From positions 1 through 64,000 of the IMG/VR virus record IMGVR_UViG_3300032116_022062: a stretch of 64,000 nt of DNA; one strand, 5' to 3'. Below the pieces are notes generated by a model. It searched no databases. It had not been told where the DNA came from and saw only the letters and a list, made by a program, of their open reading frames with translations. The stretch is from a virus. Position 1 is the stretch's first letter. Each line of letters begins with the position of its first letter. Both the position numbers and the translations under genes were made by a program. Of this stretch, positions 22,128 to 60,073 are shown one piece after another.

Positions 22128-23198
22128 ATGATTAAAAAGTTTAATCAGTTTATTAAAGAATCTTCACAAGACGGTGTTTTATTATACTATGCTTTTGACT
22201 GGGATGATAATATTCTAAGAATGCCAACTATGATTCGATTGGAACAAAAGGTTGGAGAACAATGGATTCCAACTGATGTATCAACTGCAGAATTTGCAGA
22301 AGTAAGAAATGATAAACAAAACTGGAGATTTTTAAATCAGAGCGGTGATGAGGCTTTTGCTAACTTTAGAGATACTGGTCCTAAGGGAGGTGAAGTTTTT
22401 TTAGAAGATGTCAAAATTGCTGTTTCTTCAGGAAGATTCGCTCCGGCTTGGGAAGATTTTTTAGAGTGTCTTTCCAATGGATCACTTTTTGCTATTATAA
22501 CGGCTCGTGGTCATGAATCCGAAACAATGAGAAGAGGTGTTGAGTGGATTATTGATAATGTATTGACCGAAGAACAACTATATAATATGTACAATAATCT
22601 ATTAAAGTTCTCCTATTTTTATGATATATCTACAGGGTCAGATAGAATACTAAGAGGAGTTCCTTCACAAAATGAATTATTTAAGTTATACTTAGATAAT
22701 TGTGATTTTGTGGGTGTTTCTGCCCCGTCGAGAGGCGGAACTCCAGATAATCCCGAAAAAGCTAAAGAAGAAACTTTGTTACAATTTAAGTCAAAGATAG
22801 ATAGATTTGCGGGTCAATTAGGTATGAAAGCGATGATTGGGTTTTCTGACGATGATTTAGGAAACGTATCTCACATCGAAGATTTAGCTGATAAGTTAAA
22901 TCATGAGGAGTTTCCTAACATAATTAAGTTTGTAGTTAAAGGTACAAAAGATCCAGAAAATATTACAAAGAAAGTAACAATGATGGGTGGTGTTACCGAA
23001 ACCTCAAATCAAACTCCTGGACTTGAAAATTCGGTTTTAACAGCTACTCAATTTGGAAATATGACAAGTAGATTAAATCCAAGTGGTCCTTTAAATAGAC
23101 AAGACGACTTTTTTAACCAATTTCAAAATCAAGTCAAATATTTGTCAAAAACATCAAAAGAAATATTAAAAAATAAAAAAAGAAAGTCCTCTAAATAA
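22128..23198 (+). CDS. HAD-like phosphatase with capsid-targeting-like N-terminus
   Basis: A 356-residue protein. It starts M-I-K-K-F-N-Q-F-I-K-E-S, very close to the T4 capsid-targeting pattern M-K-T-Y-Q-E-F-I-A-E. HAD-superfamily motifs follow: D-W-D-D-N at 24-28 (nucleophile Asp24 and acid Asp26), I-T-A-R-G at 124-128 (motif II Thr) and F-S-D-D-D-L-G-N at 239-246 (motif IV Asp residues). A large cap insertion occupies about 35-95. HAD enzymes with D-x-D remove phosphates from nucleotides, nucleic-acid ends or small molecules; the substrate is not evident. The last 80 residues are Asn/Thr/Lys-rich. It follows the acidic protein in an operon, and its stop codon lies inside the terminator stem-loop. 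Confidence 0.65.
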   Translation: MIKKFNQFIKESSQDGVLLYYAFDWDDNILRMPTMIRLEQKVGEQWIPTDVSTAEFAEVRNDKQNWRFLNQSGDEAFANFRDTGPKGGEVFLEDVKIAVSSGRFAPAWEDFLECLSNGSLFAIITARGHESETMRRGVEWIIDNVLTEEQLYNMYNNLLKFSYFYDISTGSDRILRGVPSQNELFKLYLDNCDFVGVSAPSRGGTPDNPEKAKEETLLQFKSKIDRFAGQLGMKAMIGFSDDDLGNVSHIEDLADKLNHEEFPNIIKFVVKGTKDPENITKKVTMMGGVTETSNQTPGLENSVLTATQFGNMTSRLNPSGPLNRQDDFFNQFQNQVKYLSKTSKEILKNKKRKSSK

Positions 23199-23210
23199 GA
23201 GGACTTTTTT
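23184..23210 (+). terminator. Rho-independent terminator overlapping the stop codon
   Basis: Stem AAGTCCTCT/AGAGGACTT, loop AAATA, then a T-run. The TAA stop of the HAD-like gene lies in the loop and stem. Confidence 0.85.
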
Positions 23211-23445
23211 ATTTATCAGTTATTTTATTTATCTTTAAATCTCTCTCAATTGCTTGTTCATTTTGGAAATACCAAGCTCTAAAATCACAAGCATAATAAA
23301 TGAATTCTTTTACCGACCCGTCTTCGTTTGTTTCTGCCTGACAAGTGCTTCCAAACATAAATTGGTTAAAACTTTCTCTCCACTCTATTGGTATTTGAGA
23401 CTCTCTCACATCAACATTGGCTTCGTATAATTCTTTTAGTGTCAT
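23209..23445 (-). CDS. Hypothetical protein, 78 aa
   Basis: From the ATG at 23445 (a TTG three codons earlier is less likely). Unrecognised, but with features of a conserved phage family: I-P-I-E-W-R-E-S-F-N-Q-F-M-F-G, a Cys at the following T-C, and Y-Y-A-C-D-F-R-A-W-Y. These aromatic- and Cys-bearing motifs suggest a small folded domain. Upstream on the minus strand is TATATTTG, a fit to the Bacteroidota -7 consensus TAnnTTTG, rather than the phage TTAATATATA element. It converges on the HAD-like gene. Confidence 0.65.
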   Translation of the reverse strand: MTLKELYEANVDVRESQIPIEWRESFNQFMFGSTCQAETNEDGSVKEFIYYACDFRAWYFQNEQAIERDLKINKITDK

Positions 23446-23451
23446 AATAAA

Positions 23452-23459
23452 CAAATATA
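23452..23459 (-). promoter_or_regulatory. TATATTTG, fit to Bacteroidota -7 consensus
   Basis: TAnnTTTG on the minus strand, 6 bases before the ATG at 23445. No convincing -33 TTTG is seen at the right distance, so this is tentative. Confidence 0.3.
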
Positions 23460-23506
23460 CTTATTTTATATTAAAACTCCTAATAGTTTTCATAATATAT
23501 CATGTG

Positions 23507-24700: not shown

Positions 24701-25161
24701 ATGAAGTGTTTTAATTTATATTCGTTTTTTATTGATAAATAGTATTTAAAATCTAAATTTCCTCTTTCATTGTTACAGTCTTTACAACAGACAACTAAAT
24801 TAACTTGAGCATTGTTACCTCCTTCAGAAATAGGAATAATATGGTCAGCTGTCGCATTATCCATTGTTAGTTTAGTATCACAGTAAAGGCACTTAGCGTC
24901 TTCGTTTTGCTCAACAAATTCTTTTGCAAAACCTGAAGTTCTTCTTCTTACATTTTTCCCATTATACTTCAATCCAACAACTACAAAATCTTCTAAAACT
25001 TTGAATTTTCTTCTAAAAATCTCAACGGATTTGTAGTTTTTGTTTATTTTAACAGCTGCTATAATAAGGTATTTCCACCTTTTGTAAGTTTTCTTATCAA
25101 CTGATAAAAAATGTGAATCTTTTGATGTCGATAAAAACTTTAAAACTTTTATTAGTCTCAT
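24697..25161 (-). CDS. HNH endonuclease
   Basis: A 154-residue protein. The HNH module spans about 95-138: C-L-Y-C, then A-D-H-I-I-P-I-S-E-G-G-N-N (the D-H pair), N-L-V-V (the N) and C-C-K-D-C-N-N-E-R-G, with two Cys pairs for structural zinc. The N-terminal 80 residues are Lys/Arg-rich. It could be a free-standing homing endonuclease or a phage nuclease of another kind. No intron or intein is seen in neighbouring genes. It converges on the primase gene and has its own element 6 bases upstream. Confidence 0.82.
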   Translation of the reverse strand: MRLIKVLKFLSTSKDSHFLSVDKKTYKRWKYLIIAAVKINKNYKSVEIFRRKFKVLEDFVVVGLKYNGKNVRRRTSGFAKEFVEQNEDAKCLYCDTKLTMDNATADHIIPISEGGNNAQVNLVVCCKDCNNERGNLDFKYYLSIKNEYKLKHFI

Positions 25162-25167
25162 CAGAGT

Positions 25168-25177: not shown

Positions 25178-25196
25178 CAAAATTGACTTTCCCTAA

Positions 25197-25206: not shown

Positions 25207-25224
25207 AAAGAAAAAATAATCACT

Positions 25225-25580: not shown

Positions 25581-25678
25581 ATTTCTAATTTTGTATATGC
25601 GTCGCATTTAGTATGTTTAGAAGTTTTACAAGATATTGTAATTGTGCTTAAGATTGCGATTAATATTATTTTTTTCAT
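25559..25678 (-). CDS. Tiny lipoprotein, 39 aa
   Basis: A short frame: M-K-K-I-I-L-I-A-I-L-S-T-I-T-I-S-C then K-T-S-K-H-T-K-C-D-A-Y-T-K. The charged start, hydrophobic core and S-C form a type II signal peptide, with Cys17 as the lipidated residue, leaving a 23-residue mature lipopeptide. Its ATG overlaps the TGA of the upstream gene (ATGA), which supports real, coupled translation, and its stop sits inside the terminator stem. Small phage lipoproteins can be outer spanins, inhibitors of reinfection, or of unknown use; at 23 mature residues it would be small for a spanin. Confidence 0.65.
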   Translation of the reverse strand: MKKIILIAILSTITISCKTSKHTKCDAYTKLEIKKDHQI

Positions 25679-26169
25679 CTTTTGTTTTTTCTTCTAGTAC
25701 TTTTGTAACTTTTTGATTCAAATTGCTCGCCAGAGTCGATAATTTCTTCATCTTTTAAAGATGTCATTTCATCTTTGACTTCTTGTTTTTGTCCAGAAGC
25801 TGTTGATTGACTTCCTAAGTTAGCTAAAACATCTTCCGGTGTGGTAAAATATTTTTTTACACCTTTGATATGATATTTTTCTGTTTCTGCTGGAAATGTT
25901 ACCTCTTTTCCATCAATTACAACTGATTTTTGACCAGGTGTGAAATCAACTCCAGCAGCATCTGCTAAAGTTTGAAGTGCTATTTCATATTTATCAGTAG
26001 CTACTTCTTCTTCTTCACCTTCAAACTCTGCTTCCATTTCGGATGGTCGATTGATAGGTGGTCTTCCACCTAAAGACGGTAGATCTCTTACAGGAGCTTC
26101 TAATTCAGGTTCCATTCCTAAATCTTCGTTTAATTTACCTTTTACAAATTGATTATATCTTTTAATCAT
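25675..26169 (-). CDS. Hypothetical acidic protein with capsid-targeting-like N-terminus
   Basis: A 164-residue protein starting M-I-K-R-Y-N-Q-F-V-K-G-K-L-N-E-D, nearly the same tag as the HAD-like protein. Residues 18-55 are Pro/Glu-rich and probably disordered (E-A-E-F-E-G-E-E-E-E-V). A small folded domain follows at about 58-110 with V-V-I-D-G-K-E-V-T-F-P-A-E-T and a K-K-Y-F-T-T-P-E-D-V segment, and the tail is basic (S-T-R-R-K-N-K-R). No family recognised. It is the first gene of a two-gene unit with the tiny lipoprotein. Confidence 0.7.
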   Translation of the reverse strand: MIKRYNQFVKGKLNEDLGMEPELEAPVRDLPSLGGRPPINRPSEMEAEFEGEEEEVATDKYEIALQTLADAAGVDFTPGQKSVVIDGKEVTFPAETEKYHIKGVKKYFTTPEDVLANLGSQSTASGQKQEVKDEMTSLKDEEIIDSGEQFESKSYKSTRRKNKR

Positions 26170-26207: not shown

Positions 26208-26723
26208 TTAATCTTTTTGTTCTAATTCAGAAACAACATAATCTAAAAAAGAGTCTAATTCATACTCCAGTCCATTACAAAACTCAAATACGTCATAATT
26301 ATCTTGAGATTTTGAATCTTTTTGTATTGAATAGAAATCTGGAGATATCTGTCCATTCTCAAAGACAACTATTCTTCCTTCCAATCTTCCTTCAATTCTT
26401 TTACCATTTGGCCAAACTAAATCTGGAACATAAAGTGTTCCTATATAGTGTAATTCATCACCATAGTCTTCGCAATAATCAAACTCAAATTTAAAAAAAC
26501 CATTATCGTCTTCAAATGTATTTTCAGTTTCTGATTTTGCCAATTTATCATGTAATTCTTCTTCTTTGCCTATTTTATGTGAGTCTAAAAATTCTTTTTC
26601 TAATGGAGTAAGCGATTTTATTCCATACTTAGAAATTTTATCTAAGATGTCATCCGTTCTTTCTTTGGATGTATATCCTTCATATCTCATTAAGTGCTTC
26701 ATAGTATGTTTATCACTTCTCAT
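26208..26723 (-). CDS. Hypothetical protein with capsid-targeting-like start
   Basis: A 171-residue protein with two possible ATGs: 26723, five bases from a promoter-like element, or 26702, which gives M-K-H-L-M-R-Y-E-G-Y-T-S-K-E, in register with the tag on other proteins here. Residues 24-50 hold D-D-I-L-D-K-I-S-K-Y-G-I-K-S-L-T, a small helical motif also found at the end of the protein encoded at 61853. The remaining domain has alternating strands (F-K-F-E-F-D-Y, Y-I-G-T-L-Y-V-P) and a G-R-L-E-G-R-I-V-V-F stretch. No enzyme motif is visible. Confidence 0.7.
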   Translation of the reverse strand: MRSDKHTMKHLMRYEGYTSKERTDDILDKISKYGIKSLTPLEKEFLDSHKIGKEEELHDKLAKSETENTFEDDNGFFKFEFDYCEDYGDELHYIGTLYVPDLVWPNGKRIEGRLEGRIVVFENGQISPDFYSIQKDSKSQDNYDVFEFCNGLEYELDSFLDYVVSELEQKD

Positions 26724-27377: not shown

Positions 27378-28076
27378 ATGAATCGAATAAAGAAATGGTC
27401 TAGTTTTTATGAGTCTTTACAAACTCCTTTAACAGAGATTGAAAAAGATGAAATTGGAACAGCATTAATATTCGCTTGTAGAAGCGTGTGGGGTTATATA
27501 AATACTTATTTTGTAAGTAATCATGGATTAAAAATTAGGGGTGAAATTTTGAGATTATCAAAAAATAATAGACTTCTAATTGATTATGTTAATAGTATCT
27601 CGCCTTCAAATACAATTTTTGATTTAGTTGAGTGGATTTCAAAAAATCAAAACGAACTATATCATCCAAATGGTCAATATTTCGATAAAGTAATTAAAAT
27701 ATTGACCAATTCTTATAATCGTGGTAGAAGTTTAGAAGAAAAAGCTAAAGATGTTTTAATTGAATATTTTGACTCCACTGGTGTTGTAATTAATCCCTTT
27801 AAACCAAAAAGAGAAAGAGACGAACAAGGTTATGATTTATTTTGGAAAATAAACCAAGGTATTGAATCCGCTCAAATTAAAACTTTAGATAATTTCTCAA
27901 CGGGTAAGACTAGAGACTTTATTCGATGTAAAGGTCATTTGAAAAAACTTGTTACTAACTATTTAGTTGCTATCAATGATTTTGAGTGTTATATTTATAA
28001 AACCTATAACCATCAATTTACATCTGAATACTTTAGTTTTCCTAAATCTAATTTACTTTATCATAAAGTTTTTTAA
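27378..28076 (+). CDS. Possible PD-(D/E)XK nuclease with capsid-targeting-like start
   Basis: A 232-residue protein starting M-N-R-I-K-K-W-S-S-F-Y-E-S. The C-terminal half has the order expected for a restriction-endonuclease-like fold: E-E-K-A-K-D-V-L-I-E-Y-F (a helix with Glu near residue 120), D-E-Q-G-Y-D-L-F-W near 150-158 (active-site Asp) and E-S-A-Q-I-K-T near 165-171, where Q-x-K replaces E-x-K as in several type II enzymes. The assignment rests on motif order alone. The N-terminal 110 residues are helical and unassigned. If packaged, it could act on host DNA early in infection. Its end overlaps the polymerase gene by 4 bases. Confidence 0.5.
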   Translation: MNRIKKWSSFYESLQTPLTEIEKDEIGTALIFACRSVWGYINTYFVSNHGLKIRGEILRLSKNNRLLIDYVNSISPSNTIFDLVEWISKNQNELYHPNGQYFDKVIKILTNSYNRGRSLEEKAKDVLIEYFDSTGVVINPFKPKRERDEQGYDLFWKINQGIESAQIKTLDNFSTGKTRDFIRCKGHLKKLVTNYLVAINDFECYIYKTYNHQFTSEYFSFPKSNLLYHKVF

Positions 28077-29506
28077 AAACCTTTTCCAAATCCGCTAAAA
28101 ATATCCATAACAACTGATAATCTTTTGGTTATTTCTGGCATTCCTAATGGTTCTATAATTGAATTTACCGGAGAAAGAATAGACTTCTCAAATTGTTCAT
28201 CAAAGTCTATTTGTGGAGCAAATTCCATAGGAAAAGAACCCCTAATATAAGCAAACATATCAGTTATTGATTTATCTTTACAAACATAGTACTTAATTTT
28301 AGTTCCGGATTTAATAAACTCATACTTTTGTTGCATTTCTTTGTCTTTAGATAGTAAGTAATTGTAATGAGCGGCAGATTTAACAGCGAAGTGAGCTCCT
28401 GAAACAAATTGCAATGGTAGTGTCTTATCATTTAAAACCTTAACATCATAATTTGAACAAGACGACTGCATTGCAATATCATCAATATCTGCTAGTTCAA
28501 ATTCTTTTCTCAGATTTTTTACTAATTTTAATAACTCTTTAATGTTAAAAGTGTCTGGGTGTGAAAAAAGATACTTAACGATTCCTACAATCTTGTCTCT
28601 AGCAAAAGCTGGAGTAGAAGAACGAACTAGTTCAACGCCTTTTGGATAAAGATAAGTTAGTCTATCATATGGTATGCCATCTTCAAAAAGAATATGTTGG
28701 ATGTATTTCTTTTTAGCAATGTTAATAATTGATTCAGAAATTCTTTCAAGTTCAAAGTCTTCTTTATTTTCGACACCAAATGAAGAGGCGTAGTCTTCGA
28801 GACACTTTTTAAAATAACCAGCATATCTAAACTGGTCTATTCCTTGAATATAATCGGTTTCATTTGACCAGTTCCATCTGATTTCTGATGTCAAAACTCC
28901 ATTGTCTATTAGTGAGTTTAGTTTTCTATCCTTTACTAGATTACCATCTATTAATAAAATATCATAGGGTAAATTTAGATTTTTTTCTAAATCTGCAACT
29001 TTATTGAAAATTCCTAAACAATTTATAGAATTTGTTTTAAAATCTTCGTTAGTGGTGAGTAGTAAAAATTTTTTTTCAAAATTAGTAAGATAATCTTCAT
29101 TAAAAATTAAATTTTGCCACTCTGAGTGGTCAATTGCTGGTTTAAATGTAACAAATAGTGAATCGGTGTCAGCATATATAGAAACTGGTTTATCTTTATC
29201 TATTGGTGTTACATTTTTTATTCCTAACTTGTAGTGTAGTTCGTGGTCTGAATGCCATTGTTTGTACCAATAGTCTTCATTTACTTTATCCATCGTTCTA
29301 GTTAAATCTCGACCTTGTGCTGTGATTGTACCAGCGACATGGTTGTTATAAAGAATAAAATAAGAAGTTGCAAAAGCACCGTATGATCCATTTAATACAA
29401 GTTTAAGAGCTAGTTGTAATGCGTTATAATAATCAACTTCTTTTTTTAAGTCCGAAGCCTTTTTTTTGAGTAATTCAATTTTTTTGATTTTCTCTTCTTT
29501 AGTCAT
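28073..29506 (-). CDS. Family B DNA polymerase, C-terminal part (split gp43-like)
   Basis: A 477-residue protein from the ATG at 29506. It begins just before polymerase motif B (K-L-V-L-N-G-S-Y-G-A-F at 35-45) and carries motif C (Y-A-D-T-D-S-L-F at 111-118), then a palm/thumb region. Motif B has Gly where most polymerases have Ser (N-G-S-Y-G rather than N-S-x-Y-G). The 3'-5' exonuclease domain and motif A, with the other catalytic Asp, are absent, so this chain cannot be active alone. Another gene outside the window should supply the rest, as in T4-like phages with split polymerases. The unrelated frame upstream to 29566 needs a TTG start. Confidence 0.85.
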   Translation of the reverse strand: MTKEEKIKKIELLKKKASDLKKEVDYYNALQLALKLVLNGSYGAFATSYFILYNNHVAGTITAQGRDLTRTMDKVNEDYWYKQWHSDHELHYKLGIKNVTPIDKDKPVSIYADTDSLFVTFKPAIDHSEWQNLIFNEDYLTNFEKKFLLLTTNEDFKTNSINCLGIFNKVADLEKNLNLPYDILLIDGNLVKDRKLNSLIDNGVLTSEIRWNWSNETDYIQGIDQFRYAGYFKKCLEDYASSFGVENKEDFELERISESIINIAKKKYIQHILFEDGIPYDRLTYLYPKGVELVRSSTPAFARDKIVGIVKYLFSHPDTFNIKELLKLVKNLRKEFELADIDDIAMQSSCSNYDVKVLNDKTLPLQFVSGAHFAVKSAAHYNYLLSKDKEMQQKYEFIKSGTKIKYYVCKDKSITDMFAYIRGSFPMEFAPQIDFDEQFEKSILSPVNSIIEPLGMPEITKRLSVVMDIFSGFGKGF

Positions 29507-29562
29507 AAATTTTATATTACAATAACCAAAAAAGTTTTTTTGAAAAAAAATCGATTTTAAAG

Positions 29563-29572
29563 TCAATATATA
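29563..29572 (+). promoter_or_regulatory. TCAATATATA promoter-like element
   Basis: Plus-strand TCAATATATA, 20 bases before the ATG at 29593. Confidence 0.45.
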
Positions 29573-31502: not shown

Positions 31503-32048
31503 ATGAAAAAAATAAAATTATTCAGAGAGTTCATTGAAAATAGCGACAATGTTATTGATGCTAAGATGCAAGAATTAAAAGACCTTATCGATGGTCTTTC
31601 TGATAATAGTATCATTTATGAGTGGGAAAATAAGTCTGATCACGAGGTGGTTGTAAATTTTACAAAAGATGATTTATCTATAAGGTATGAATTTGATATA
31701 GATCAAATGTATGTAGCAAAGTTTGTTGGTGATACTACTGATTTTCAAACTTATGTGGATTCTATTGATGAAGGGCTAGATATTATTGAAAAAGACATTC
31801 AAGGAATTTTGGGAATATCCGAAAGAGTTAAAGCACAAAAGTATAAAGGCCGTAAAATTCCAGGAAAATATTTAACTAAAAATCCTGGTAAAATGAAGAA
31901 AGAAATTGACACATTTAGAGGAAAAAAAGAGTATAAAAAAGACTGGGATGCTGATTACTCGTCTGGTAAAGGAGGTGAGGGTAAAAGAGTTAAAACTAAA
32001 AAATCAGCAGCAACTAAAGCATACCAAAAAATGTTTGGAAATAAATAA
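31503..32048 (+). CDS. Hypothetical protein with capsid-targeting-like N-terminus, 181 aa
   Basis: Starts M-K-K-I-K-L-F-R-E-F-I-E-N-S, one of the best matches to the T4 tag. The first 100 residues are acidic with helical and beta segments (I-I-Y-E-W-E-N-K-S, V-V-V-N-F-T-K-D-D-L-S-I-R-Y-E-F); the last 75 are strongly basic (K-A-Q-K-Y-K-G-R-K-I-P-G-K-Y, ending K-A-Y-Q-K-M-F-G-N-K), which would suit contact with packaged DNA. No enzyme motif is visible. The next gene begins 14 bases downstream. Confidence 0.7.
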   Translation: MKKIKLFREFIENSDNVIDAKMQELKDLIDGLSDNSIIYEWENKSDHEVVVNFTKDDLSIRYEFDIDQMYVAKFVGDTTDFQTYVDSIDEGLDIIEKDIQGILGISERVKAQKYKGRKIPGKYLTKNPGKMKKEIDTFRGKKEYKKDWDADYSSGKGGEGKRVKTKKSAATKAYQKMFGNK

Positions 32049-32061: not shown

Positions 32062-32760
32062 ATGAGATACTTAAAAACATTTGAGAGTTTTAGAGAACCA
32101 TTAAATAGAGAAGAAATGATTGAGACTCTTTCTTCAACATCTACATTCGAAAGAGAAGAACTTGAGGCAATGACTGATGATGAATTAGAGGAGTTATTCC
32201 ATTCCTTAGAAACCGAAGATTGGATATCTGAATTAGACAGAGAATCTACTAGTGATGAAAATTGGATAGGAGGACCTTACAACCCAAGAGAGGAAGAAGA
32301 AGGTGATTATTACGAGTCTTATACATTTGAGGATTTTACACATGCTGATATGGAAGATGTTAGAGAACTTTTAGAAATGGGTCTTACTGAAGATCAAATT
32401 GCAATTGAGTTGGATTTGGAAGTTTATGTTGTTAAACAAATTATCGATACTATAAATAAACATGGTAGTGTTTCTGATGAATTAGAAGGATTGGATGAAT
32501 CTAAAAAGTCTGGAGTAACCGCTTCTCTTAAAAAGAAATCAAAAGCTTCTGGAATTCCTGTTGGTATTTTAAGAAAAGTTTTTTCTAAAGGAATGCAAGC
32601 TTGGAATGCTGGTCATAGACCAGGGGTTGCTCAACATCAATGGGGAATGGGTAGAGTTAATTCATTCATTACTGGCGCTGGTGGAGCAAGAAAAGCAGAC
32701 GCTGATTTATGGACAAAAGCAAAAGCTGCTAAAGCAAGAAAGAAGAAAAGAAAGAAGTAA
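32062..32760 (+). CDS. Conserved phage protein with capsid-targeting-like N-terminus, 232 aa
   Basis: Starts at the ATG at 32062, M-R-Y-L-K-T-F-E-S-F-R-E-P; a longer frame back to 31906 needs a TTG and overlaps the previous gene. Residues 14-56 (N-R-E-E-M, E-L-E-A-M-T-D-D-E-L-E-E-L) match a segment of the protein at 36036. After an acidic middle, residues 150-225 form a domain I recall from many cyanophage and other T4-like proteins: S-G-I-P-V-G-I-L-R-K-V, G-M-Q-A-W-N-A-G-H-R-P-G, Q-W-G-M-G-R-V-N-S-F and a final D-A-D-L-W. The function of that domain is unknown to me. The tail is Lys/Arg-rich. Confidence 0.75.
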   Translation: MRYLKTFESFREPLNREEMIETLSSTSTFEREELEAMTDDELEELFHSLETEDWISELDRESTSDENWIGGPYNPREEEEGDYYESYTFEDFTHADMEDVRELLEMGLTEDQIAIELDLEVYVVKQIIDTINKHGSVSDELEGLDESKKSGVTASLKKKSKASGIPVGILRKVFSKGMQAWNAGHRPGVAQHQWGMGRVNSFITGAGGARKADADLWTKAKAAKARKKKRKK

Positions 32761-33150: not shown

Positions 33151-34269
33151 ATGATAACAAAATACGATGGTTTTATATTAGAAAAACTAAAGTTTGAAAT
33201 CTTTTCTCTTTTAGAAGGTCGAGTTTATAGCACGACTGATTTTTTATTTAAATTAAAATCATTAGTAAAACAACCAGGTAAAGTAGGTGAAATTGCCGAT
33301 CAAATATTAGATATAATAGAGAGTGAGCAGTATTTCCCAGATGATAAAATTAAACAAAACTATTTTGATTTAGTTGATTCTGAAGATATGGTTGGGTTTA
33401 TAAATCAATCAAAGGTAAATTCTAAAAAAGATGAAATTTATGATAATCCTAATTTTCCTTATACAATGCCCGGCAGAGGTGAGGTAAAAATTGGTAAAAT
33501 TGTAAATTATATTTGTTCTTTAAGAGGAATTAACGTGAGTGATTCTGATAGAGAGTCTTTTGTAAATTCTTGGAAAGCTTCTACGGAAGTATCAACGATT
33601 CAATTCAAATTAGTATCTGGTGAAGATATTGCAAAATATTATGATGAAAATAAATATTACAGTCGAAAAGGAACTTTAGGAAGTTCTTGTATGAGAGATG
33701 AAGGTAAAAGAACTTTTAAGATTTATACTGAAAATCCAGATAAAGTAAAACTTCTTATTTATGTTGATTCTGATGATAAAATTCATGGAAGAGCTCTTGT
33801 CTGGAAGGTTAAAAAATCACCTTGTGATTCTAAATACTTTATGGATAGAGTTTATGCTAACCGAGATTCGGATGTTAATAGATTTAAACAATTTGCGGAT
33901 ACAGAAGGTTGGTTTTATAAGAAAGTTATTTCATCACATGATAGTGATAGCGTTCGTTTCATTTATAAAGGCGAAGAAGTATCCGGTGAAGTTAAATTAA
34001 AGTTAAAAGGCGACTTTAATATGTATCCTTATGTTGATACTATGTGTTTTTTAAGTAAAGATAAAGATAGTTTGTCTAATTTATCTGACAAAAATTGTTA
34101 TTACTTACATAGTGTTTATGGTGAAAGAGAAAGATGTGAAGATTGTGAAGGTGATGTTATCACAACAAACTGGGACGGTGATAAAGTGTTATGTTCTGAA
34201 TGTTCATCAGGTCACCAAGCTCTAAAAGATCTGCGTATCGAAACTAAATGGAATAAAAAAGTCGATTAA
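33151..34269 (+). CDS. Conserved phage protein with capsid-targeting-like start and zinc ribbon
   Basis: A 372-residue protein starting M-I-T-K-Y-D-G-F-I-L-E-K. The central domain (about 165-260) has motifs I recall from T4-like phages and large viruses: I-A-K-Y-Y, G-T-L-G-S-S-C-M-R, V-K-L-L-I-Y-V, G-R-A-L-V-W-K-V, F-M-D-R-V-Y-A and G-W-F-Y-K-K. No function is known to me. The C-terminus carries a zinc-ribbon-like C-E-D-C...V-L-C-S-E-C (about 328-350). Its end overlaps the UvsY-like gene by 4 bases on the other strand. If packaged, it could be an internal head protein. Confidence 0.75.
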   Translation: MITKYDGFILEKLKFEIFSLLEGRVYSTTDFLFKLKSLVKQPGKVGEIADQILDIIESEQYFPDDKIKQNYFDLVDSEDMVGFINQSKVNSKKDEIYDNPNFPYTMPGRGEVKIGKIVNYICSLRGINVSDSDRESFVNSWKASTEVSTIQFKLVSGEDIAKYYDENKYYSRKGTLGSSCMRDEGKRTFKIYTENPDKVKLLIYVDSDDKIHGRALVWKVKKSPCDSKYFMDRVYANRDSDVNRFKQFADTEGWFYKKVISSHDSDSVRFIYKGEEVSGEVKLKLKGDFNMYPYVDTMCFLSKDKDSLSNLSDKNCYYLHSVYGERERCEDCEGDVITTNWDGDKVLCSECSSGHQALKDLRIETKWNKKVD

Positions 34270-36006: not shown

Positions 36007-36037
36007 AAAACCCAGTCATTTTGACTGGGTTTTTTTT
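36007..36037 (+). terminator. Rho-independent terminator, probably bidirectional
   Basis: Stem AAAACCCAGTCA/TGACTGGGTTTT with a TTT loop and a run of T. It separates the lysin gene from the convergent gene at 36036. Confidence 0.9.
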
Positions 36038-36767
36038 ATTTAAAGTTTCCAAAACTTTTTATATTTTTCATTTCATCTTCTAAATCTTTATTAGCCAAAT
36101 GACTCTCGGTCTCTTCGTGTGATGGTTCATCATAATGATGATGTCCTTGGTCTTCAGATGGTACATCGTGACCAGCTAAGAAATTGAATACTTCCTCGAT
36201 ATCATCTTTAGATGTTGCAATATGATCTAATGCCCAGTTGTGACCATTTGATAATTTAGCATCAACTTCAGATTCATCCATTTCTAACATCTCATCAACT
36301 AATCTTTTAATTGTTTTTAAATTTCCAAAAAACATATAATTTTGTGTATTCTGGTGTTCTTTTAGTCCTTTAAGTGTTTTTGCTAAATTTAATTTTCTGT
36401 ATTTTGCTAAATCATTTTTAGAAAGACCTTGTACTCCTTTTTTCTTAGGATCTTTGTCTTTTCCTTTTAGAGCCTCTAGTTCGGAGTCAATTTCTTTCTT
36501 TGAAATTTTTTCTCCTTCTTTTTTGTCCATAGATTTTCTTAAAGATCCTGGATTTTTGATAGCGTCTTTAATCCATTTTTCTCCTTTCTTCTCCTGAGTC
36601 ATAGTGTTATTATTTATATAGTTTTCTTCCTCTGTTGCTCTACACATTTCTTCAAGTTCTTGATTTGAACATTCTTCGAGTTCGCTCATAGTATATCCAC
36701 ATCTGCAAAGAGCACTACACATTTCTTCTCTAGACATATAACTTTCAAATTTTTGAATAACTTTCAT
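36036..36767 (-). CDS. Conserved phage protein with capsid-targeting-like N-terminus, 243 aa
   Basis: Starts M-K-V-I-Q-K-F-E-S-Y-M-S-R-E-E-M. The first 50 residues align with the protein at 32062 (R-E-E-M, E-L-E-E, E-L-E-E-M) and contain three Cys (C-S-A-L-C-R-C). Residues about 62-130 hold a domain recalled from crAss-like and other Bacteroidota phages: W-I-K-D-A-I-K-N-P-G-S-L-R-K-S then G-E-K-I and K-Y-R-K-L-N-L-A-K-T-L-K. The rest is acidic with a His-rich stretch (G-H-H-H-Y-D-E-P-S-H). It ends at the shared terminator. Likely an internal virion protein if the tag works as in T4. Confidence 0.75.
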   Translation of the reverse strand: MKVIQKFESYMSREEMCSALCRCGYTMSELEECSNQELEEMCRATEEENYINNNTMTQEKKGEKWIKDAIKNPGSLRKSMDKKEGEKISKKEIDSELEALKGKDKDPKKKGVQGLSKNDLAKYRKLNLAKTLKGLKEHQNTQNYMFFGNLKTIKRLVDEMLEMDESEVDAKLSNGHNWALDHIATSKDDIEEVFNFLAGHDVPSEDQGHHHYDEPSHEETESHLANKDLEDEMKNIKSFGNFK

Positions 36768-36800: not shown

Positions 36801-37955
36801 TTAAATCAGAATATTAACTACTTCAGGGTAGTATTTACTCATTTCTGGATTTTTATCAGAATAGTCTACTTTAGATATAACATATCTCATAGCGTTTAAC
36901 CTACCAATCTTTTTATCATTTGAGTTAATAATAACCCAAGGAGACAATCTAGATGAAGTTTGTTGAAACATCTGTCTTTTAAAGTTTCCAATAACTTCCC
37001 ATTTGTCTAATACTTTTGCGTCGTTTGGAGAGAACTTCCAATATTTAAGTGGTGATTTTTGTCTTAATTCAAATCTTTTAATTTGTTTATCTTGCGTAAT
37101 TGAGAACCAGAATTTTATAAGTATCAAACCATTTCTGATTTGTTTTTCTTCCCAATCTATAACTTTATCCATAAAGTCTTGATATTGTTCTTCTGTGCAA
37201 TATCCCATAGCTGGTTCAACAACTGCTCTATTGTACCAACTTCTATCAAAGAAAACTATTTCTCCTGAATTAGGCAAGTGTGTCTCATATCTTTGGAACC
37301 AATTGTTTTTTTCCTCATCAGTTGGAACACCTAGTGCTACAACTTTAAATCCTTTTGGATCCAAATATTCAACAAATCTTTTAATAGTTGATCCTTTACC
37401 TGCGGCATCTCTACCTTCAAATACAATTGCTACTTTTTTTCCGTTTGCCTTAACCCATTCTTGAAGTTTTAATAGTTCAACCTGTAATTGATATTTTTCA
37501 GATTCATATTGTCTTCTTCCTAAAATTGAACCTTCTCCTTCAAATTGGTCAAAATGATCTTCAGTTTTTCCTGTCTGATGTAATTGGTCAATTCTTACTT
37601 CTATTGACTTGTAGTAGTCATCAAAGGATTCTCTAACTTTTCTTTTAGTATTTCTTTTTTTAAGTTCTAATATTTGATTTAATTTTCTTAAAAATGCTTC
37701 TAAGTTTAATTCTTGAACAACTTCTTCTGTAAATTCATTAGTTAGTTCTCTTATCATTACTTTAATATCGATTGTTTCGAATTCTTTATACTCTACTTTA
37801 TTCGTTGTTAAATTATAATTGATGTTTGATAGAATAAATGTTCGATACTCATTTAATCTAAAAAGTAAATTTCTTTTTAGAGTATCTACTGAAGGTTTAT
37901 CCATGTCTTCAATCCATAATTCTTCTCTTATAAAGTTTGAAAATCTTTTTAACAT
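36801..37955 (-). CDS. ppk2: Polyphosphate kinase 2 (PPK2) with capsid-targeting-like N-terminus
   Basis: A 384-residue protein. Residues about 125-375 are a PPK2 domain, which moves phosphate between polyphosphate and nucleotides: Walker A F-E-G-R-D-A-A-G-K-G-S near 179-189, P-T-D-E-E-K-N-N-W-F-Q-R-Y near 211-223, Walker B F-F-D-R-S-W-Y-N-R near 234-242, and the lid region K-S-P-L-K-Y-W-K-F-S. The ~125-residue N-terminal extension is not part of the usual domain; it begins M-L-K-R-F-S-N-F-I-R-E-E, matching the capsid tag, and is helical and charged. It could regenerate NTPs or dNDPs from host polyphosphate. It has its own element 4 bases upstream. Confidence 0.9.
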   Translation of the reverse strand: MLKRFSNFIREELWIEDMDKPSVDTLKRNLLFRLNEYRTFILSNINYNLTTNKVEYKEFETIDIKVMIRELTNEFTEEVVQELNLEAFLRKLNQILELKKRNTKRKVRESFDDYYKSIEVRIDQLHQTGKTEDHFDQFEGEGSILGRRQYESEKYQLQVELLKLQEWVKANGKKVAIVFEGRDAAGKGSTIKRFVEYLDPKGFKVVALGVPTDEEKNNWFQRYETHLPNSGEIVFFDRSWYNRAVVEPAMGYCTEEQYQDFMDKVIDWEEKQIRNGLILIKFWFSITQDKQIKRFELRQKSPLKYWKFSPNDAKVLDKWEVIGNFKRQMFQQTSSRLSPWVIINSNDKKIGRLNAMRYVISKVDYSDKNPEMSKYYPEVVNILI

Positions 37956-38962: not shown

Positions 38963-39271
38963 ATGAAGTATATCAGGAAATTTGAAACTTTTGATTTTAG
39001 TCAAACGCTACCAGTCGCATCAAAGGCTGACTTAACACTTTATTATCATTGTGATGAGTGTAATGCTCTTTGGAAACAACTTAATCAAGAATCCAATGAT
39101 TGTAAATTTTGCCAATCTAACGAAATTGAGGAGTTAAGTAAAGACGAGTGGTATGAAACTGTTGGTGATAGACTAGAAGAAGATGATTTTCAGGATTTAG
39201 AATCCGAGAGAGCTAAAGATGAAGATGACTTTATAGATTTATATAAATTAAATAAAGGAAATGTCAATTAA
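38963..39271 (+). CDS. Zinc-ribbon protein with capsid-targeting-like N-terminus, 102 aa
   Basis: Starts M-K-Y-I-R-K-F-E-T-F-D-F. Residues about 28-55 form a four-Cys zinc ribbon: Y-H-C-D-E-C-N-A-L-W then D-C-K-F-C-Q-S, similar in layout to FmdB-like or rubredoxin-like ribbons. The remainder is very acidic (E-E-D-D-F-Q-D-L-E-S-E). Its stop overlaps the start of the next gene by 11 bases, so the two form a coupled pair. Confidence 0.7.
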   Translation: MKYIRKFETFDFSQTLPVASKADLTLYYHCDECNALWKQLNQESNDCKFCQSNEIEELSKDEWYETVGDRLEEDDFQDLESERAKDEDDFIDLYKLNKGNVN

Positions 39272-52177: not shown

Positions 52178-52744
52178 ATGAGTAGATACAATACATATAC
52201 ACTTCCATTAGGCCCAGTTGATATTACGGCTGATGCTGGTGATCCAGATGTTAGAAAAGTTATAAGTAGCACAGTTACTGGAATAACAACAAGCTCATTG
52301 ACTGATGTTTTACTTTATAGTACTCTTGTTCCGGCAGGAACTTATATAGCAAATGAGGTATTGGATATTAGAACTTTAGGTACAAAATCCGCTACTAATA
52401 ATACTTGCACTCTTAGATTTTGGTATGGTACCACTGCTTCTTTATCAGGAGCGACTCAGTTAGCTCAGTGTTTATATACTTCAACTTCTCGGTCTCTTCC
52501 TCTTCATAGAAGATTGGGTATAAGATCAGCAACTAACAGTACAATAGCTTTTGATACCACTAGAAGTGCAACAACTGATTTAGCTTTTGGAGGCAGTGAA
52601 TTAAATGGTAGGAATGGTGAATCACCAGGTGGTATTGATTTGGTATCTGTTAATTGGCAAAATGATGTTTGGATTCTTGTAAGTGGAGATGTTGATAATG
52701 CTTCTGATGTTTTACAGGTTAGATATTTTAAAATAAATAATTAA
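52178..52744 (+). CDS. Putative fibre-tip protein, first of three paralogues
   Basis: A 188-residue beta-rich protein beginning M-S-R-Y-N-T-Y-T-L. Features shared with the next two proteins: V-T-G-I-T-T-S-S-L near residue 32-40, L-V-P-A-G-T-Y then a D-I/D-V-I-x-I strand, a W-Y-G-T-T/W-N-E-T/W-N-T-S turn followed by L-A-Q-C-L or similar, T-D-L near the middle, V-N-W or I-N-W, and a C-terminal R-Y-F-K-I. The fold is probably a compact beta sandwich like receptor-binding tips. Position after two giant fibres suggests tip or accessory adhesin. Confidence 0.7.
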   Translation: MSRYNTYTLPLGPVDITADAGDPDVRKVISSTVTGITTSSLTDVLLYSTLVPAGTYIANEVLDIRTLGTKSATNNTCTLRFWYGTTASLSGATQLAQCLYTSTSRSLPLHRRLGIRSATNSTIAFDTTRSATTDLAFGGSELNGRNGESPGGIDLVSVNWQNDVWILVSGDVDNASDVLQVRYFKINN

Positions 52745-57912: not shown

Positions 57913-57950
57913 CAATAAATTATATTGTCAATAAAATAAAAGTTTCTTTT

Positions 57951-57960
57951 TTAATATATA
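57951..57960 (+). promoter_or_regulatory. TTAATATATA promoter-like element
   Basis: Exact plus-strand element, 4 bases before the ATG at 57965. Confidence 0.55.
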
Positions 57961-57964
57961 CTCT

Positions 57965-58729
57965 ATGAAATTGACAAAATTCTTTGAGTTTAAAAGAGGA
58001 GCTTTTACTCCAATTAAGTCATTTAGGATTCAAAATGAATTACCTTCAAAGTTGTGGGATAATTTTGAATTGGACGGTGATATTAAAAAACAGTTATTAC
58101 AAATTGCTCAGGATTTCTTTGAAGGAACTGAAATAAAAACGGATGTTGTTGATATAGTTTTATGTGGATCTCTGTGTAATTATAATTGGTCTGAAAAATA
58201 TTCAGACTATGATTTACATATAACTATAGATTATAAAAATGTTGATGAAGACTATGATTTAGTTGAAAAACTATGTGATTATGCTAAGAAAATTTGGAAC
58301 CAACAACATGATATTAAAATAAAGGGTTATGAGGTTGAGGTTTGTATTCAGGATGATGCAATTATGCGTGATGAGTTAAAAACCGGAAAAATGGGAGGAG
58401 TCTACTCATTGATGAATGATAAATGGGTTAAAAAACCAGAAAAAGTTGATTTTAAACCAAATGAGAGAATGATTAAAGAAAAATCTAAGACTATTATAAT
58501 GTCTATAGATGATATTGAATCCGATTCTAAAGAAAAGGACTTTGATGAACTAGAACCAAAGATAAAAAAGGTTTGGAAAAAGATAAAAAGTTATCGACAA
58601 AGTGGATTAGATTCCGAAAGTGGTGAATTTTCATTGGGTAACTTAGTATTTAAGTTACTAAGAAGAAATGGATATATCGGAAAAATCATGGAAATGAAAA
58701 GAAAATTATACGACAAACAATTTAAATAA
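57965..58729 (+). CDS. Nucleotidyltransferase-fold protein with capsid-targeting-like start
   Basis: A 254-residue protein starting M-K-L-T-K-F-F-E-F-K-R-G. Residues about 60-90 carry the pol-beta superfamily motif G-S-x(9-13)-D-x-D: L-C-G-S-L-C-N-Y-N-W then S-D-Y-D-L-H-I; E-V-E-V-C-I near 120 could be the third carboxylate. Such enzymes transfer NMP groups to proteins, RNA ends or antibiotics; the target is unknown. A conserved-looking stretch M-G-G-V-Y-S-L-M-N-D-K-W follows. If packaged, it could modify host molecules at the start of infection. Followed after one base by the gene at 58731. Confidence 0.7.
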   Translation: MKLTKFFEFKRGAFTPIKSFRIQNELPSKLWDNFELDGDIKKQLLQIAQDFFEGTEIKTDVVDIVLCGSLCNYNWSEKYSDYDLHITIDYKNVDEDYDLVEKLCDYAKKIWNQQHDIKIKGYEVEVCIQDDAIMRDELKTGKMGGVYSLMNDKWVKKPEKVDFKPNERMIKEKSKTIIMSIDDIESDSKEKDFDELEPKIKKVWKKIKSYRQSGLDSESGEFSLGNLVFKLLRRNGYIGKIMEMKRKLYDKQFK

Positions 58730-58730
58730 T

Positions 58731-59426
58731 ATGGATATTAAAATTTCAGAAATACAAGAACTATTTAAAGAGATATTCGAGGAAGAAGAGGGAATTGCTT
58801 CTTCCGTAGAGATAGTTTATGAGATGTCACCAGATGAAAAGTTTTATAAGATGGTGATATCTATTCAGGGTTTAGAAACTGAAGATGTTTCTATTATACA
58901 TACAAAGTACATATTCAAAGTTGATTTAAATAAAAAAAATCTAATTGAGAATTCTTTTATTTACTTATATGATATAAATTGTGTTTATCACAAAATTGAG
59001 TTTGAAAATGTATTAGATGTTAAGAAGAAAATTGAAGATATCATAGACTCAAATGATTTTGGTCAAGATTTACAAATTCTTTCAGACTTTATTGAAGCAC
59101 CCGCTATGTTTTTAAATTACTACATGCGTAGAGCAAAAATCACTGACTATTCGGTCTTTGATGTTGAGTATCAACCAAAGTTTAAAACAACTCCTTGTGA
59201 TGAAACCACATTTGACTTTAAAATCAACATAAATAATAACTATAATATGGAGTTGTCAATTTCTAAGGTTGATAAAACAAGTGAGGATGAAATAGACATA
59301 TATAAATACCAATTTCGTTTTATGGATGAGATAGAGACGTTTGAAACAGACACTCTTAAAAACCTGCACTTCTTTATTGGTGACCATGTCGCTAAAATAT
59401 TAGATAAAAAACTTAAAAATAAATAA
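58731..59426 (+). CDS. Hypothetical protein, 231 aa
   Basis: Unrecognised. Acidic, alternating strands and helices, for example V-E-I-V-Y-E-M-S-P-D-E-K-F-Y-K-M-V-I-S-I, and T-F-D-F-K-I-N-I-N-N-N-Y-N-M-E-L-S-I-S-K in the second half, which looks like a partial internal duplication of a beta-hairpin. Placed between the nucleotidyltransferase (1 base upstream) and the next gene, whose ATG overlaps its stop (TAATG), so all three are co-translated. Confidence 0.65.
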   Translation: MDIKISEIQELFKEIFEEEEGIASSVEIVYEMSPDEKFYKMVISIQGLETEDVSIIHTKYIFKVDLNKKNLIENSFIYLYDINCVYHKIEFENVLDVKKKIEDIIDSNDFGQDLQILSDFIEAPAMFLNYYMRRAKITDYSVFDVEYQPKFKTTPCDETTFDFKININNNYNMELSISKVDKTSEDEIDIYKYQFRFMDEIETFETDTLKNLHFFIGDHVAKILDKKLKNK

Positions 59427-60073
59427 TGAAATATTTACATAAGTTTTTACAACATTTAAATGAATCTCAGGATATAACAGATCTTTCTAAAGAAGAGTTA
59501 GATGAGATGTTACTTCCTATAAAGGATTTGGATATTGAATATTCTTTTCAGCCACCAAGAACAATCACAGAAGGTGAATATGAGGGATATACTTCAATGA
59601 ATATCATATTCAGAAATTCATTTAAAACTGGACCTATGGGTGGTTACACCGAAATGATAATTGATGATAAGTTTTGGGAGTTTTTAGATGAACTTATATC
59701 TTTTAAAAATCGTTTAGAAAGTGTCCAGGTGTCAATTAATACTAGTTGGAAATGGGGTATTGTCGTTTGTTTTATTCAAAATGCAAAAGTAGAAGGCGAT
59801 TTATTCAAAGTTCAAAAATTGTACAATGAAATGTCCAAAAGGACAAGTGCTGCAAAAAGTGATTTTGTAAATGGTATTGTGAAAAGATTAAATAAAGAAG
59901 AATTTAAAATTACTGTAAATTGTAATGGTTTTGGACCTGGTAGTTATACTGATAGAAAGTGGAATGGTCTTTTTAGGGGAATAGATTTCTCTGATTTCGA
60001 TGTTGAGAAAAATATAACAGAGGACCGATACGGTGATAAACAGGCAGAGATTACAATAACTATTAAAAAGTAA
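59426..60073 (+). CDS. Hypothetical protein with weak capsid-targeting-like start, 215 aa
   Basis: Starts M-K-Y-L-H-K-F-L-Q-H-L-N-E-S, where His replaces the second aromatic of the tag. No enzyme family recognised. Beta-rich sections (S-V-Q-V-S-I-N-T-S-W-K-W-G-I-V-V) and a helix (F-K-V-Q-K-L-Y-N-E-M-S-K-R). The end contains a G-F-G-P-G-S-Y turn and charged strands. It is the last gene before the portal gene and is coupled to the gene upstream by a TAATG overlap. Confidence 0.65.
   Translation: MKYLHKFLQHLNESQDITDLSKEELDEMLLPIKDLDIEYSFQPPRTITEGEYEGYTSMNIIFRNSFKTGPMGGYTEMIIDDKFWEFLDELISFKNRLESVQVSINTSWKWGIVVCFIQNAKVEGDLFKVQKLYNEMSKRTSAAKSDFVNGIVKRLNKEEFKITVNCNGFGPGSYTDRKWNGLFRGIDFSDFDVEKNITEDRYGDKQAEITITIKK

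Follow-up and report, generated by a model that had tools for sequence, protein, structure and literature searches.

Tagged proteins in the window

The window, the 64,000 nucleotides analyzed here, is part of an 83,122-bp record from a T4-like huge phage whose capsid protein is 77% identical to its counterpart in LR745206 (W01, 635 kb). The initial annotation had listed twelve proteins in the window that begin with methionine, basic residues and two aromatics three positions apart. All twelve starts are present and match the pattern, although two of them, at 26702 and 57965, are weak matches with no cleavage-like site next to the tag.

The 356-residue protein at 22128..23198 (+) begins MIKKFNQFIKE|S, where the bar marks the predicted cut. 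A DWDD motif seen by eye suggests a HAD-like fold, and Pfam gave no match. Its orthologues begin MIKKFNQFLEN in W01 and MDILRFDQFIRES in W06, and that of W03 is tagged as judged by eye. The preceding gene (21711..22124, +) encodes a very acidic protein with a conserved tag-like C-terminal end, LESFQSFINKKRK (LESFQSFVNK in W01, LESFQSFINKKK in W06). An acidic protein at 25675..26169 (-) begins MIKRYNQFVKGKLNE|D and its orthologues in W01 and W06 are tagged; the DUF6576 protein at 26208..26702 (-; Pfam, 2.9e-7), which starts at 26702 or 26723, has the tag-like N-terminus MKHLMRYEGY. The protein at 27378..28076 (+), with no function assigned, begins MNRIKKWSSFYE|S and has a late-promoter-like element, AATATATA, upstream. 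Two further tagged proteins are encoded at 31503..32048 (+; MKKIKLFREFIE|N, with a basic C-terminus) and 32062..32760 (+; MRYLKTFESFRE, with DUF5824 at residues 156-214, E 2.8e-13); the tag of the latter starts at an in-frame ATG within a longer ORF call. The N-terminus MITKYDGFILE at 33151..34269 (+) is tag-like, but it may be an ordinary helix integral to the protein because the W01 family mixes tagged and untagged paralogues. An AlphaFold2 model of this protein from four sequences had a mean pLDDT of 41 and was not used.

The protein at 36036..36767 (-) begins MKVIQKFESYM and contains a weak SSV VP2-like stretch (E 0.0014, below cut-off). Its C-terminus, KNIKSFGNFK, is also tag-like. A polyphosphate kinase 2 (PPK2) at 36801..37955 (-) combines the tag MLKRFSNFIRE|E with a PPK2 domain at residues 147-369 (PF03976, 9.1e-79), and its orthologues are tagged in W06 (MINNFIKFINE|E), W03 (MISNYDNFMNE|S), W01 (MPVYNFHKFINE|E) and G003 (MLKRFQNFILE|D). 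A small protein with CxxC pairs (38963..39271, +) begins MKYIRKFETF. The protein at 57965..58729 (+; MKLTKFFEF) matches phrog_36119, a family of unassigned function (4.5e-36), and is nucleotidyltransferase-like by motif and by a weak Pfam match (MTPAP-like_central, E 0.011, below cut-off). The last of the twelve, at 59426..60073 (+), begins MKYLHKFLQHLNE|S, and its W01 counterpart MKHLTQFFDYIKE|S.

Several tagged starts had been overlooked. A DHH-like protein at 374..2596 (-) begins MNIKDYRLFLGLESDEPINE|EVGLRN with an INE|E site, and its W01 orthologue begins MISKYNQFINE|EVGLRN (DHH match E 1.7e-4, below cut-off). The C-terminal end of this protein contains KFESFNNSKL. Outside the window, tagged starts were found at 69141, 69542, 71085, 82191(-) and 82813(-); the ORF at 69102 fits the pattern from an earlier methionine, and the tag-like MKYLKYFES begins at 69141.

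Head genes and a late-promoter-like element

The head-gene block starts with a portal protein (60129..61856, +), which is outside the tagged set. Just past the window lie a gp21-type prohead protease (65187-67280; phrog_207, 1.9e-30), whose Peptidase_S77 match is below the Pfam cut-off, and a gp23-type capsid protein (67360-69066; Gp23, 6.9e-27). An AlphaFold2 model of the protease domain (31 sequences) had a mean pLDDT of 46 and was not used. The capsid protein carries the site INE|N, which resembles the predicted cut site of the tag, in 83 of 86 sequences (counted without dereplication).

In W01, AATATATA was found upstream of 58/137 tagged and 112/758 untagged genes (p=3e-12). The same was seen in W06 (64/113 versus 82/447) and W02 (20/55 versus 41/516), whereas the excess was weak in W03 and, in this record alone, not significant (7/15 versus 18/67).

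Enrichment of the tag at N-termini

The comparison set consisted of relatives of this phage of 460-735 kb (W01, W06, W03, W02 and W12), of which 400 kb each of W02, W03 and W06 and 340 kb of W12 were examined; Lak and T4 were represented by 160 kb each. ORFs shorter than 60 aa or without an ATG were excluded before counting, and N-termini at the first ATG were compared with Met-initiated internal peptides. Over the whole record, the pattern first described occurs at 14/82 N-termini versus 3/311 internal sites (p=4.5e-8); a slightly wider pattern gave 15/82 versus 3/311. One of the 15, at 52178-52744 (MSRYNTYTLPL), adjoins tail-fibre-like genes and looks like a chance match.

The relatives gave the same result. 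The tag is found at 137/895 ORF starts of W01 versus 22/2529 internal Met positions (p=7e-60), so that about 8 of the 137 matches are expected by chance from the internal rate. Corresponding values were 113/560 versus 17/1674 (W06), 51/502 versus 23/1719 (W03), 55/571 versus 13/1412 (W02) and 31/418 versus 13/1165 (W12); across this phage and its relatives roughly 1 gene in 5 to 1 in 13 is tagged. Among 80 IMG/VR loci, counted without dereplication, the pattern occurs at 209/1638 N-termini versus 100/7343 internal sites. In a held-out test, a mixture model fitted to just three other huge phages, which as relatives leave the test not fully independent, scored 12/82 N-termini versus 0/311 internal sites in this record and 146/895 versus 6/2529 in LR745206; its low counts in PTm1, Lak and T4 do not serve as controls, since their N-termini formed the background of the model. 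The N-terminal tag is real and far above chance.

A unified pattern was enriched in 13 of 13 phages (p<0.05), weakly in some (T4, 7/232 versus 8/746; PTm1, 9/287 versus 4/874; MaF61, 4/186 versus 5/1000), and was not used as a test because it was composed after inspection of T4 and PAU. The PAU and Lak patterns were likewise composed after inspecting their N-termini. Enrichment of a C-terminal version was weak and no claim is made for it.

Architecture of the tag

The tag has two hydrophobic residues three apart, often followed by hydrophobic-x-Glu and a small residue, and its consensus is lineage-specific (for example MKYLKxFxxF or MIKKYxxFIKE). The 25 MKYLK tags are encoded by 13 different DNA 15-mers and are therefore not recent DNA copies. 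The strict T4 spacing, arom-xx-arom-[ILVM]-x-E, is found at 29/502 N-termini versus 4/1719 internal sites in W03 and 19/418 versus 0/1165 in W12, and at only 25/895 versus 1/2529 in W01; many tags, such as MKYLKTFESF, have no textbook I/L-x-E after the second aromatic. A looser site, hydrophobic-x-E-[SAGN] within residues 6-25, is present in 88/152 tagged versus 78/743 untagged W01 proteins (p=8e-35), a majority of the tagged proteins but not all, and in 5/145 of them at residues 46-65. In this record alone the excess is modest (8/18 versus 8/64, p=5e-3).

Distribution of the tag among genes

Apart from their N-termini, the tagged proteins were described at the outset as unrelated, and mostly they are: 152 tagged W01 proteins formed 138 clusters. 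Three of the 152, which span stretch ends, were set aside before counting. Identified enzymes include RNA ligase, a CCA/poly(A) polymerase-family enzyme, 2H, DHH-like and Nudix proteins and PPK2. Among 20 tagged W01 proteins picked mostly by length, Pfam found domains in 4 at E 1e-3. Of the 149 (of 152) tagged W01 proteins searched with PADLOC, a single one was assigned to a family, as a DEDDh nuclease, so a counter-defence role does not rest on PADLOC.

Replication and tail proteins were said to lack the tag. None of 39 core orthologues shared with PTm1 carries it (p=6e-4) and 1 of 25 T4 orthologues does (p=0.06), the single case being the RNA ligase RnlA, which has the tag in three of seven genomes and lacks it in the other four. 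The statement holds with one possible tail exception, the loose match at 52178. Agreement in tag status between orthologues is lost with distance. By regular expression, 24/280 W01-W06 pairs are discordant; 2 of 86 W01-W03 pairs are both tagged and 9 discordant (p=0.07), 1 of 108 W01-W02 pairs is both tagged and 13 discordant (p=0.41), and among 21 pairs between this record and W03 none is both tagged and 3 are discordant.

Phage PAU

The cultured Sphingomonas phage PAU has its own tag, MKT[LI]xxLYE|[AS], at 18/287 ORFs versus 1/1065 internal sites, and 12 of the 18 lie inside the 100-115 kb head-gene block. Hydrophobic spacing and the Glu-small pair match the MKYLKKFNE|S class; the consensus differs. 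Four of the five PAU proteins deposited in GenBank as 'internal capsid protein' are tagged (4/18 tagged versus 1/269 untagged, p=5e-5; 3/269, p=3e-4, when the two 'internal capsid vertex' proteins are included). Taking the labels as deposited, the tag is absent from one internal capsid protein, gp70, and from both vertex proteins, gp1 and gp10. The labelled scaffolding protein has the PAU tag. A PDB search gave no match for PAU gp154 or the PAU capsid protein.

Discussion

The tags are probably capsid-targeting sequences of the T4 kind that load cargo into the head, as the initial annotation proposed. In T4, residues 4 and 7 of the sequence serve targeting and residues 8 and 10 processing (PMC9026906); the tags keep the targeting pair, with hydrophobics at positions equivalent to Y4 and F7, and often the processing residues. 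Like the propeptides of T4 IPI, IPII, IPIII and Alt, which are cut by gp21, they occupy about ten residues at the extreme N-terminus of unrelated proteins and often end in hydrophobic-x-Glu ahead of a small residue, and the phage has gp21- and gp23-type genes with a matching site in the capsid protein. The late-promoter-like elements in the relatives, the untagged core orthologues and the PAU labels are consistent with this reading. Against it, neither PTm1 nor the 160 kb examined of Lak shows enrichment of the pattern, though both phages have related capsid proteins.

By analogy with T4, the basic residues and hydrophobic or aromatic pair would bind the prohead scaffold, and proteins made late in infection, as the upstream element suggests, would fill the prohead with small proteins and enzymes, a large set whose members are mostly unrelated. 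The gp21-type protease would then cut after hydrophobic-x-Glu, often ahead of Ser, Ala, Gly or Asn and at the same kind of site as INE|N, freeing mature proteins within the head. The cargo would presumably leave with the DNA at infection, where the RNA ligase, CCA/poly(A) polymerase-family, 2H, DHH-like, Nudix and PPK2 proteins could fit early repair and counter-defence.

It is rather unlikely that the packaged proteins act inside the head, in DNA condensation or head building, instead of being injected. T4 IPIII has been suggested to act in head assembly (PMC9026906), the tagged PAU scaffolding protein would fit, and the tagged set includes strongly acidic and strongly basic proteins, but RNA-repair and nucleotide enzymes have no evident use there. 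Improbable, too, is a localization or docking signal for a target other than the prohead, such as a phage-made compartment or shared partner, with the Glu part of the docking motif. Packaging is argued from sequence and the T4 analogy, many tags lack a strict I/L-x-E beside the aromatic pair, and 137 of 895 genes is high for head cargo; however, the residues match the T4 targeting and processing needs (PMC9026906), the small residue after Glu agrees with the capsid-protein site, core orthologues lack the tag and most labelled PAU internal capsid proteins have that phage's version.

It is highly improbable that the pattern arises from AT-rich coding and a preference for Lys-rich, A-rich first codons at translation starts, together with coincidence. 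W01 N-termini as a whole are indeed enriched in Lys, Asn and Ile at position 2, but AT-rich phages showed no significant excess (PTm1, 6/287 versus 8/874; Lak, 5/161 versus 15/688; pT24, 5/276 versus 11/1193; and, in 50 kb each, crAss001, 1/46 versus 2/191, and AR9, 1/57 versus 2/198), composition accounts for neither the spacing of the hydrophobics nor the Glu-small pair that follows, and the held-out model disfavours this reading. Duplication of one ancestral head protein, with the tag its sole recognizable remnant, is scarcely credible: relatedness is seen in a few of the tagged families (10 multi-member clusters, the largest of 5), but the 138 clusters and the untagged relatives elsewhere of several known enzymes speak against it, and the cases of RnlA and the CCA/poly(A) polymerase-family enzyme contradict it.

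The proposed capsid targeting differs from known systems in several ways. Unlike T4's handful, 51-137 tagged ORFs were found in the 400-635 kb examined of each of four huge phages; consensuses are lineage-specific, C-terminal versions are possible, and among the predicted cargo are RNA ligase, PPK2, Nudix and a CCA/poly(A) polymerase-family enzyme. A similarity over about ten residues, with consensuses that differ between lineages, is too short to prove descent from the T4 tag. The ejection-protein propeptides of SPN3US and phiKZ share a gp21-type protease, cleavage after Glu and a large mass of head cargo, but most are described as far longer, several in SPN3US exceeding 100 residues, and their cut sites are A-x-E or S/A-x-E (PMC5694885, PMC9026906). 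For P1 DarB, N-terminal residues reportedly suffice to bring a reporter into the capsid, whereas a consensus was not detected among the Dar N-termini (PMC9024508). A literature search covering mainly journals free of subscription found no description of such tags in huge phages and no paper on PAU capsid work; the tag is not mentioned in the consulted parts of Al-Shayeb et al. (PMC7162821), and those of the MA9V-1 account describe virion proteins by gel only.

What appears to be new is the expansion of T4's handful of tagged head proteins to dozens or more. The set was expected to be large and to include enzymes, and its scale exceeds what the window alone could show. With the tag on so many genes, these phages may bring a ready-made enzyme kit with their DNA. 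A bolder proposal, which seems to us evenly poised between right and wrong, is that Mahaphage-clade heads carry about 100 distinct tagged proteins, among them a kit for tRNA repair (RnlA and a CCA-adding-type enzyme) and possible destroyers of host alarm nucleotides (2H, DHH-like, Nudix), delivered before any phage gene is read; much of the genome expansion would then be cargo capacity, and in each T4-like lineage a separate tag would evolve along with that lineage's scaffold. If so, counter-defence and RNA repair would start ahead of transcription. The sequence rule turns dozens to more than 100 hypothetical huge-phage genes into predicted virion cargo and makes the purpose of these extra genes directly testable, and the suggested lineage-specific packaging tags (PAU, W12 and Lak-type) may be useful for protein delivery by phage heads.

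Enrichment of the tag at protein starts

The initial annotation had described a short N-terminal tag (Met, basic residues, an aromatic-xx-aromatic motif and often I-x-E) on proteins of the window, which covers bases 1-64,000 of a virus record of 83,122 bp. We compared the N-termini at first ATGs with peptides starting at internal Met residues of the same proteins. The pattern as first written was indeed in excess at protein starts in the full 83,122-bp record (14/82 N-termini vs 3/311 internal) and in the huge phage LR745206 (90/895 vs 21/2,529, p=8.5e-35). A widened pattern, which adds a related MK[YH][LI]xx[FY]-like form, gave 15/82 vs 3/311 in the record and 137/895 vs 22/2529 in LR745206, and the excess extended to LR756502 (113/560 vs 17/1674), LR756501 (51/502 vs 23/1719), LR756504 (55/571 vs 13/1412) and LR756500 (31/418 vs 13/1165). 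There was little excess in PTm1 (6/287 vs 8/874), Lak-B5 (5/161 vs 15/688), crAss001 (1/46 vs 2/191), AR9 (1/57 vs 2/198), pT24 (5/276 vs 11/1193), MaF61 (5/186 vs 12/1000) and MA9V-1 (4/255 vs 11/1163); T4 gave 8/232 vs 6/746 (p=0.007) and Sphingomonas phage PAU 8/287 vs 10/1065 (p=0.02). A mixture model trained on LR756502, LR756501 and LR756504 scored 146/895 vs 6/2529 in LR745206 and 12/82 vs 0/311 in the record, a test that was held out yet not fully independent because LR745206 and LR756502 are relatives.

The record carries a T4-type head block with genes for the portal (phrog_213, 6.6e-58), for a head maturation protease at 65187-67280 (phrog_207, 1.9e-30; its Peptidase_S77 match fell under the Pfam cut-off) and, adjoining the protease gene, for a Gp23-family capsid protein (6.9e-27); it also encodes a gp55-type late sigma factor (phrog_234, 6.7e-7). 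The capsid protein shows 77% identity to its counterpart in LR745206 (634,780 bp) and 51-76% identity to the counterparts in LR756502, LR756504 and LR756501 (642, 636 and 735 kb); LR756500 is 462 kb. Al-Shayeb et al. 2020 (PMC7162821) assign the largest of their genomes to a 'Mahaphage' clade, for which Bacteroidetes hosts are predicted.

Likeness to T4 targeting and cleavage

PMC9026906 reports, from truncation and suppressor work, that T4 targeting depends mainly on residues 4 and 7 of a ten-residue sequence, that processing depends on residues 8 and 10, and that gp21 cleaves after L/I-x-E. The huge-phage tag matches the residues needed in T4, both in spacing and in the hydrophobic-x-Glu. 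The strict form, aromatic-xx-aromatic-[ILVM]-x-E, was found in LR745206 at 25/895 vs 1/2529, LR756501 29/502 vs 4/1719, LR756502 17/560 vs 3/1674, LR756504 18/571 vs 2/1412, LR756500 19/418 vs 0/1165 and the record 3/82 vs 1/311. Among the 152 tagged proteins of LR745206 (in-frame ATGs within the first 45 codons accepted), 88 had hydrophobic-x-E-[SAGN] at residues 6-25, vs 78/743 untagged (p=8e-35); at residues 46-65 the same proteins gave 5/145. In the record the counts at residues 6-25 were 8/18 tagged and 8/64 untagged (p=5e-3).

The capsid protein reads INE↓N (the arrow marks a putative prohead-protease cut) in 83 of 86 sequences, which were not dereplicated, while two others have IHE↓N and MNE↓N; the Lak capsid protein was without this site pattern as written. 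A similar site lies in the N-terminus of the protease, where Glu17 is nearly invariant (31 sequences). Capsid targeting with Glu-specific cleavage is, judging from the sequences, very probably the function of the tag and much the best explanation.

The tag as an add-on

The proteins behind the tag had been called unrelated, and the 152 tagged proteins of LR745206 gave 138 clusters when compared without their first 22 residues. On such sequence comparisons the tag is an add-on to mostly unrelated proteins. The RNA ligase RnlA, read in seven genomes, was tagged in LR745206 (MKLFKYIEFINE↓N), LR756502 (MKKLHRYNSFIKE↓S) and G009, a further genome (MKLFRYKEFIKE↓G), and without a tag in LR756504, LR756501, G007 (another such genome) and T4. 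A CCA/poly(A) polymerase-family enzyme, read in six, was tagged in LR745206 (MILKKYKMFLE↓S), LR756502 (MIITKYAKFLE↓S) and G009 (MKIKKYKSFLE↓S), had no tag in LR756504 and Lak, and was within a much longer frame in LR756501 (155778-156200(-), where the PolyA_pol/CCA match is part of an open frame of 1,237 aa; elsewhere the protein has ~400 aa). The 2H/Acb1-like domain was tagged in LR745206, LR756502 and G009; one LR756504 copy was tag-like (MNFYSNFDDFLLE), and the second and that of T4 were bare. PPK2 was tagged in the record, LR745206, LR756502, LR756501 and G003, and bare in a second, distant LR756501 copy.

In the DHH-like orthologues of the record (MNIKDYRLFLGLESDEPINE↓EVGLRN), LR745206 (MISKYNQFINE↓EVGLRN) and LR756502 (MLRKYGQFINE↓EVGFKN) the putative cut site and mature start are conserved and the tag differs. 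The 25 MKYLK tags of LR745206 have 13 different 15-base spellings and are therefore kept as protein rather than being recent DNA copies. Tag status agreed between LR745206 and LR756502 orthologues (33 both tagged, 223 neither, 24 discordant; p=2e-23), and agreement faded with distance: LR756501, 2 both and 9 discordant of 86; LR756504, 1 both and 13 discordant of 108; record against LR756501, 0 both and 3 discordant of 21. The regular expression undercounts tags, because some discordant partners appear tagged by eye. Several tagged LR756500 proteins (e.g. 13446-14282, 180972-181730(-), 198758-199531(-)) share a body start like KLxxLELIAxL and are possibly an amplified family.

Putative cargo and untagged genes

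Known domains were scarce among tagged proteins of the window (PPK2, DUF6576, DUF5824; one further protein matched a functionally uncharacterised PHROG and, weakly, a nucleotidyltransferase family), and the DHH-like assignment is a sub-threshold match on the LR745206 orthologue. Beyond the window, the record encodes tagged proteins with an NFACT-R domain (69141-69524(+)) and a SET domain (81739-82191(-)), and others that are metallopeptidase-like (69542-71083(+)) and cysteine-hydrolase-like (82199-82813(-)), both by motifs seen by eye. Pfam assigned 20 families among 149 tagged LR745206 proteins, including RNA_lig_T4_1, PolyA_pol, Nudix (2 proteins) and NFACT-R; peptidase M50 and GH16 may be among ~8 chance matches. 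One tagged protein fuses a 2H/Acb1-like domain to an exonuclease. PADLOC contributed nothing of use.

Tag-like ends also occur at C-termini (21711-22124(+), LESFQSFINKKRK; 36036-36767(-), IKSFGNFK; 374-2596(-), KFESFNNSKL), and FxxF followed by KK/KR close to C-termini was weakly enriched in LR745206, LR756504 and LR756501. PMC9026906 describes cleavage of T4 Alt at its C-terminus too.

Replication and tail proteins had been said to be free of the tag. In the record, none of the proteins that PHROGs identified as portal, baseplate, helicase, polymerase, protease or late sigma factor carried it. Reciprocal-best orthologues of LR745206 were tagged in 0/39 cases with PTm1 (hypergeometric 5.9e-4) and 1/25 with T4 (p=0.06), namely RnlA. 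The ORF at 28073-29566(-) matches DNA polymerase families in its C-terminal part only; the polymerase of the record is possibly split, and two polymerase ORFs are present in MA9V-1 as well.

Upstream element

The element AATATATA lay within 40 bases upstream of 58/137 tagged vs 112/758 untagged genes in LR745206 (p=3e-12), 64/113 vs 82/447 in LR756502, 20/55 vs 41/516 in LR756504 and, weakly, 11/51 vs 54/451 in LR756501 (p=0.05); the record gave no significant excess (7/15 vs 18/67). It ended 4-6 bases before the ATG in 81/170 LR745206 cases. In the window it precedes, often at 4-6 bases from the ATG, genes such as 27378, 31503, 36801-37955(-), 57965, 11699-13765(-) and 15724-18852(-), and in the record it is also ahead of the portal (60129) and baseplate wedge (81365) genes. 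Because it resembles the T4 late TATA box, we infer that it is a late promoter. If it acts as one of T4 type, mRNAs would begin at or beside the ATG, i.e. leaderless.

Tags in other lineages

PAU, a cultured phage, has its own tag, MKT[LI]xxL[YF]E (written after inspection of its N-termini), on 18/287 ORFs vs 1/1,065 internal sites (p=8e-12). Over bases 1-217,000 of the 219,372 in its GenBank record, five proteins are labelled 'internal capsid protein' by the depositors; four (gp142, gp154, gp199 and gp270) are tagged and gp70 is not. This label was on 4/18 tagged and 1/269 untagged ORFs (p=5e-5), or 4/18 and 3/269 (p=3e-4) when the untagged 'internal capsid vertex proteins' gp1 and gp10 were added. 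The 'scaffolding' protein gp152 is tagged, and the head block at 100-115 kb holds 12/18 tagged ORFs vs 14/269 others. A small ORF of the window (23209-23442(-)) starts with the PAU-type tag-like MTLKELYEANVDVRES.

Lak-B5 has hydrophobic-x-E-[SGAN]-LF[DE], again written after inspection, in the first 45 residues of 5/161 ORFs (later stretches 0/779), and MA9V-1 has three T4-like tags, e.g. MKTFFNFVNE↓S (3/255 vs 1/1163, p=0.02). From these patterns and that of the huge phages, T4-type phages thus seem to hold lineage-specific tags, numerous only in huge phages among those examined. A literature search found no published account of such tags in huge phages. By analogy with T4, the tagged proteins would likely be injected and act early. 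Such a system is known in kind from T4; what sets this one apart is its scale, the enzymes among the predicted cargo and tags that differ between lineages.
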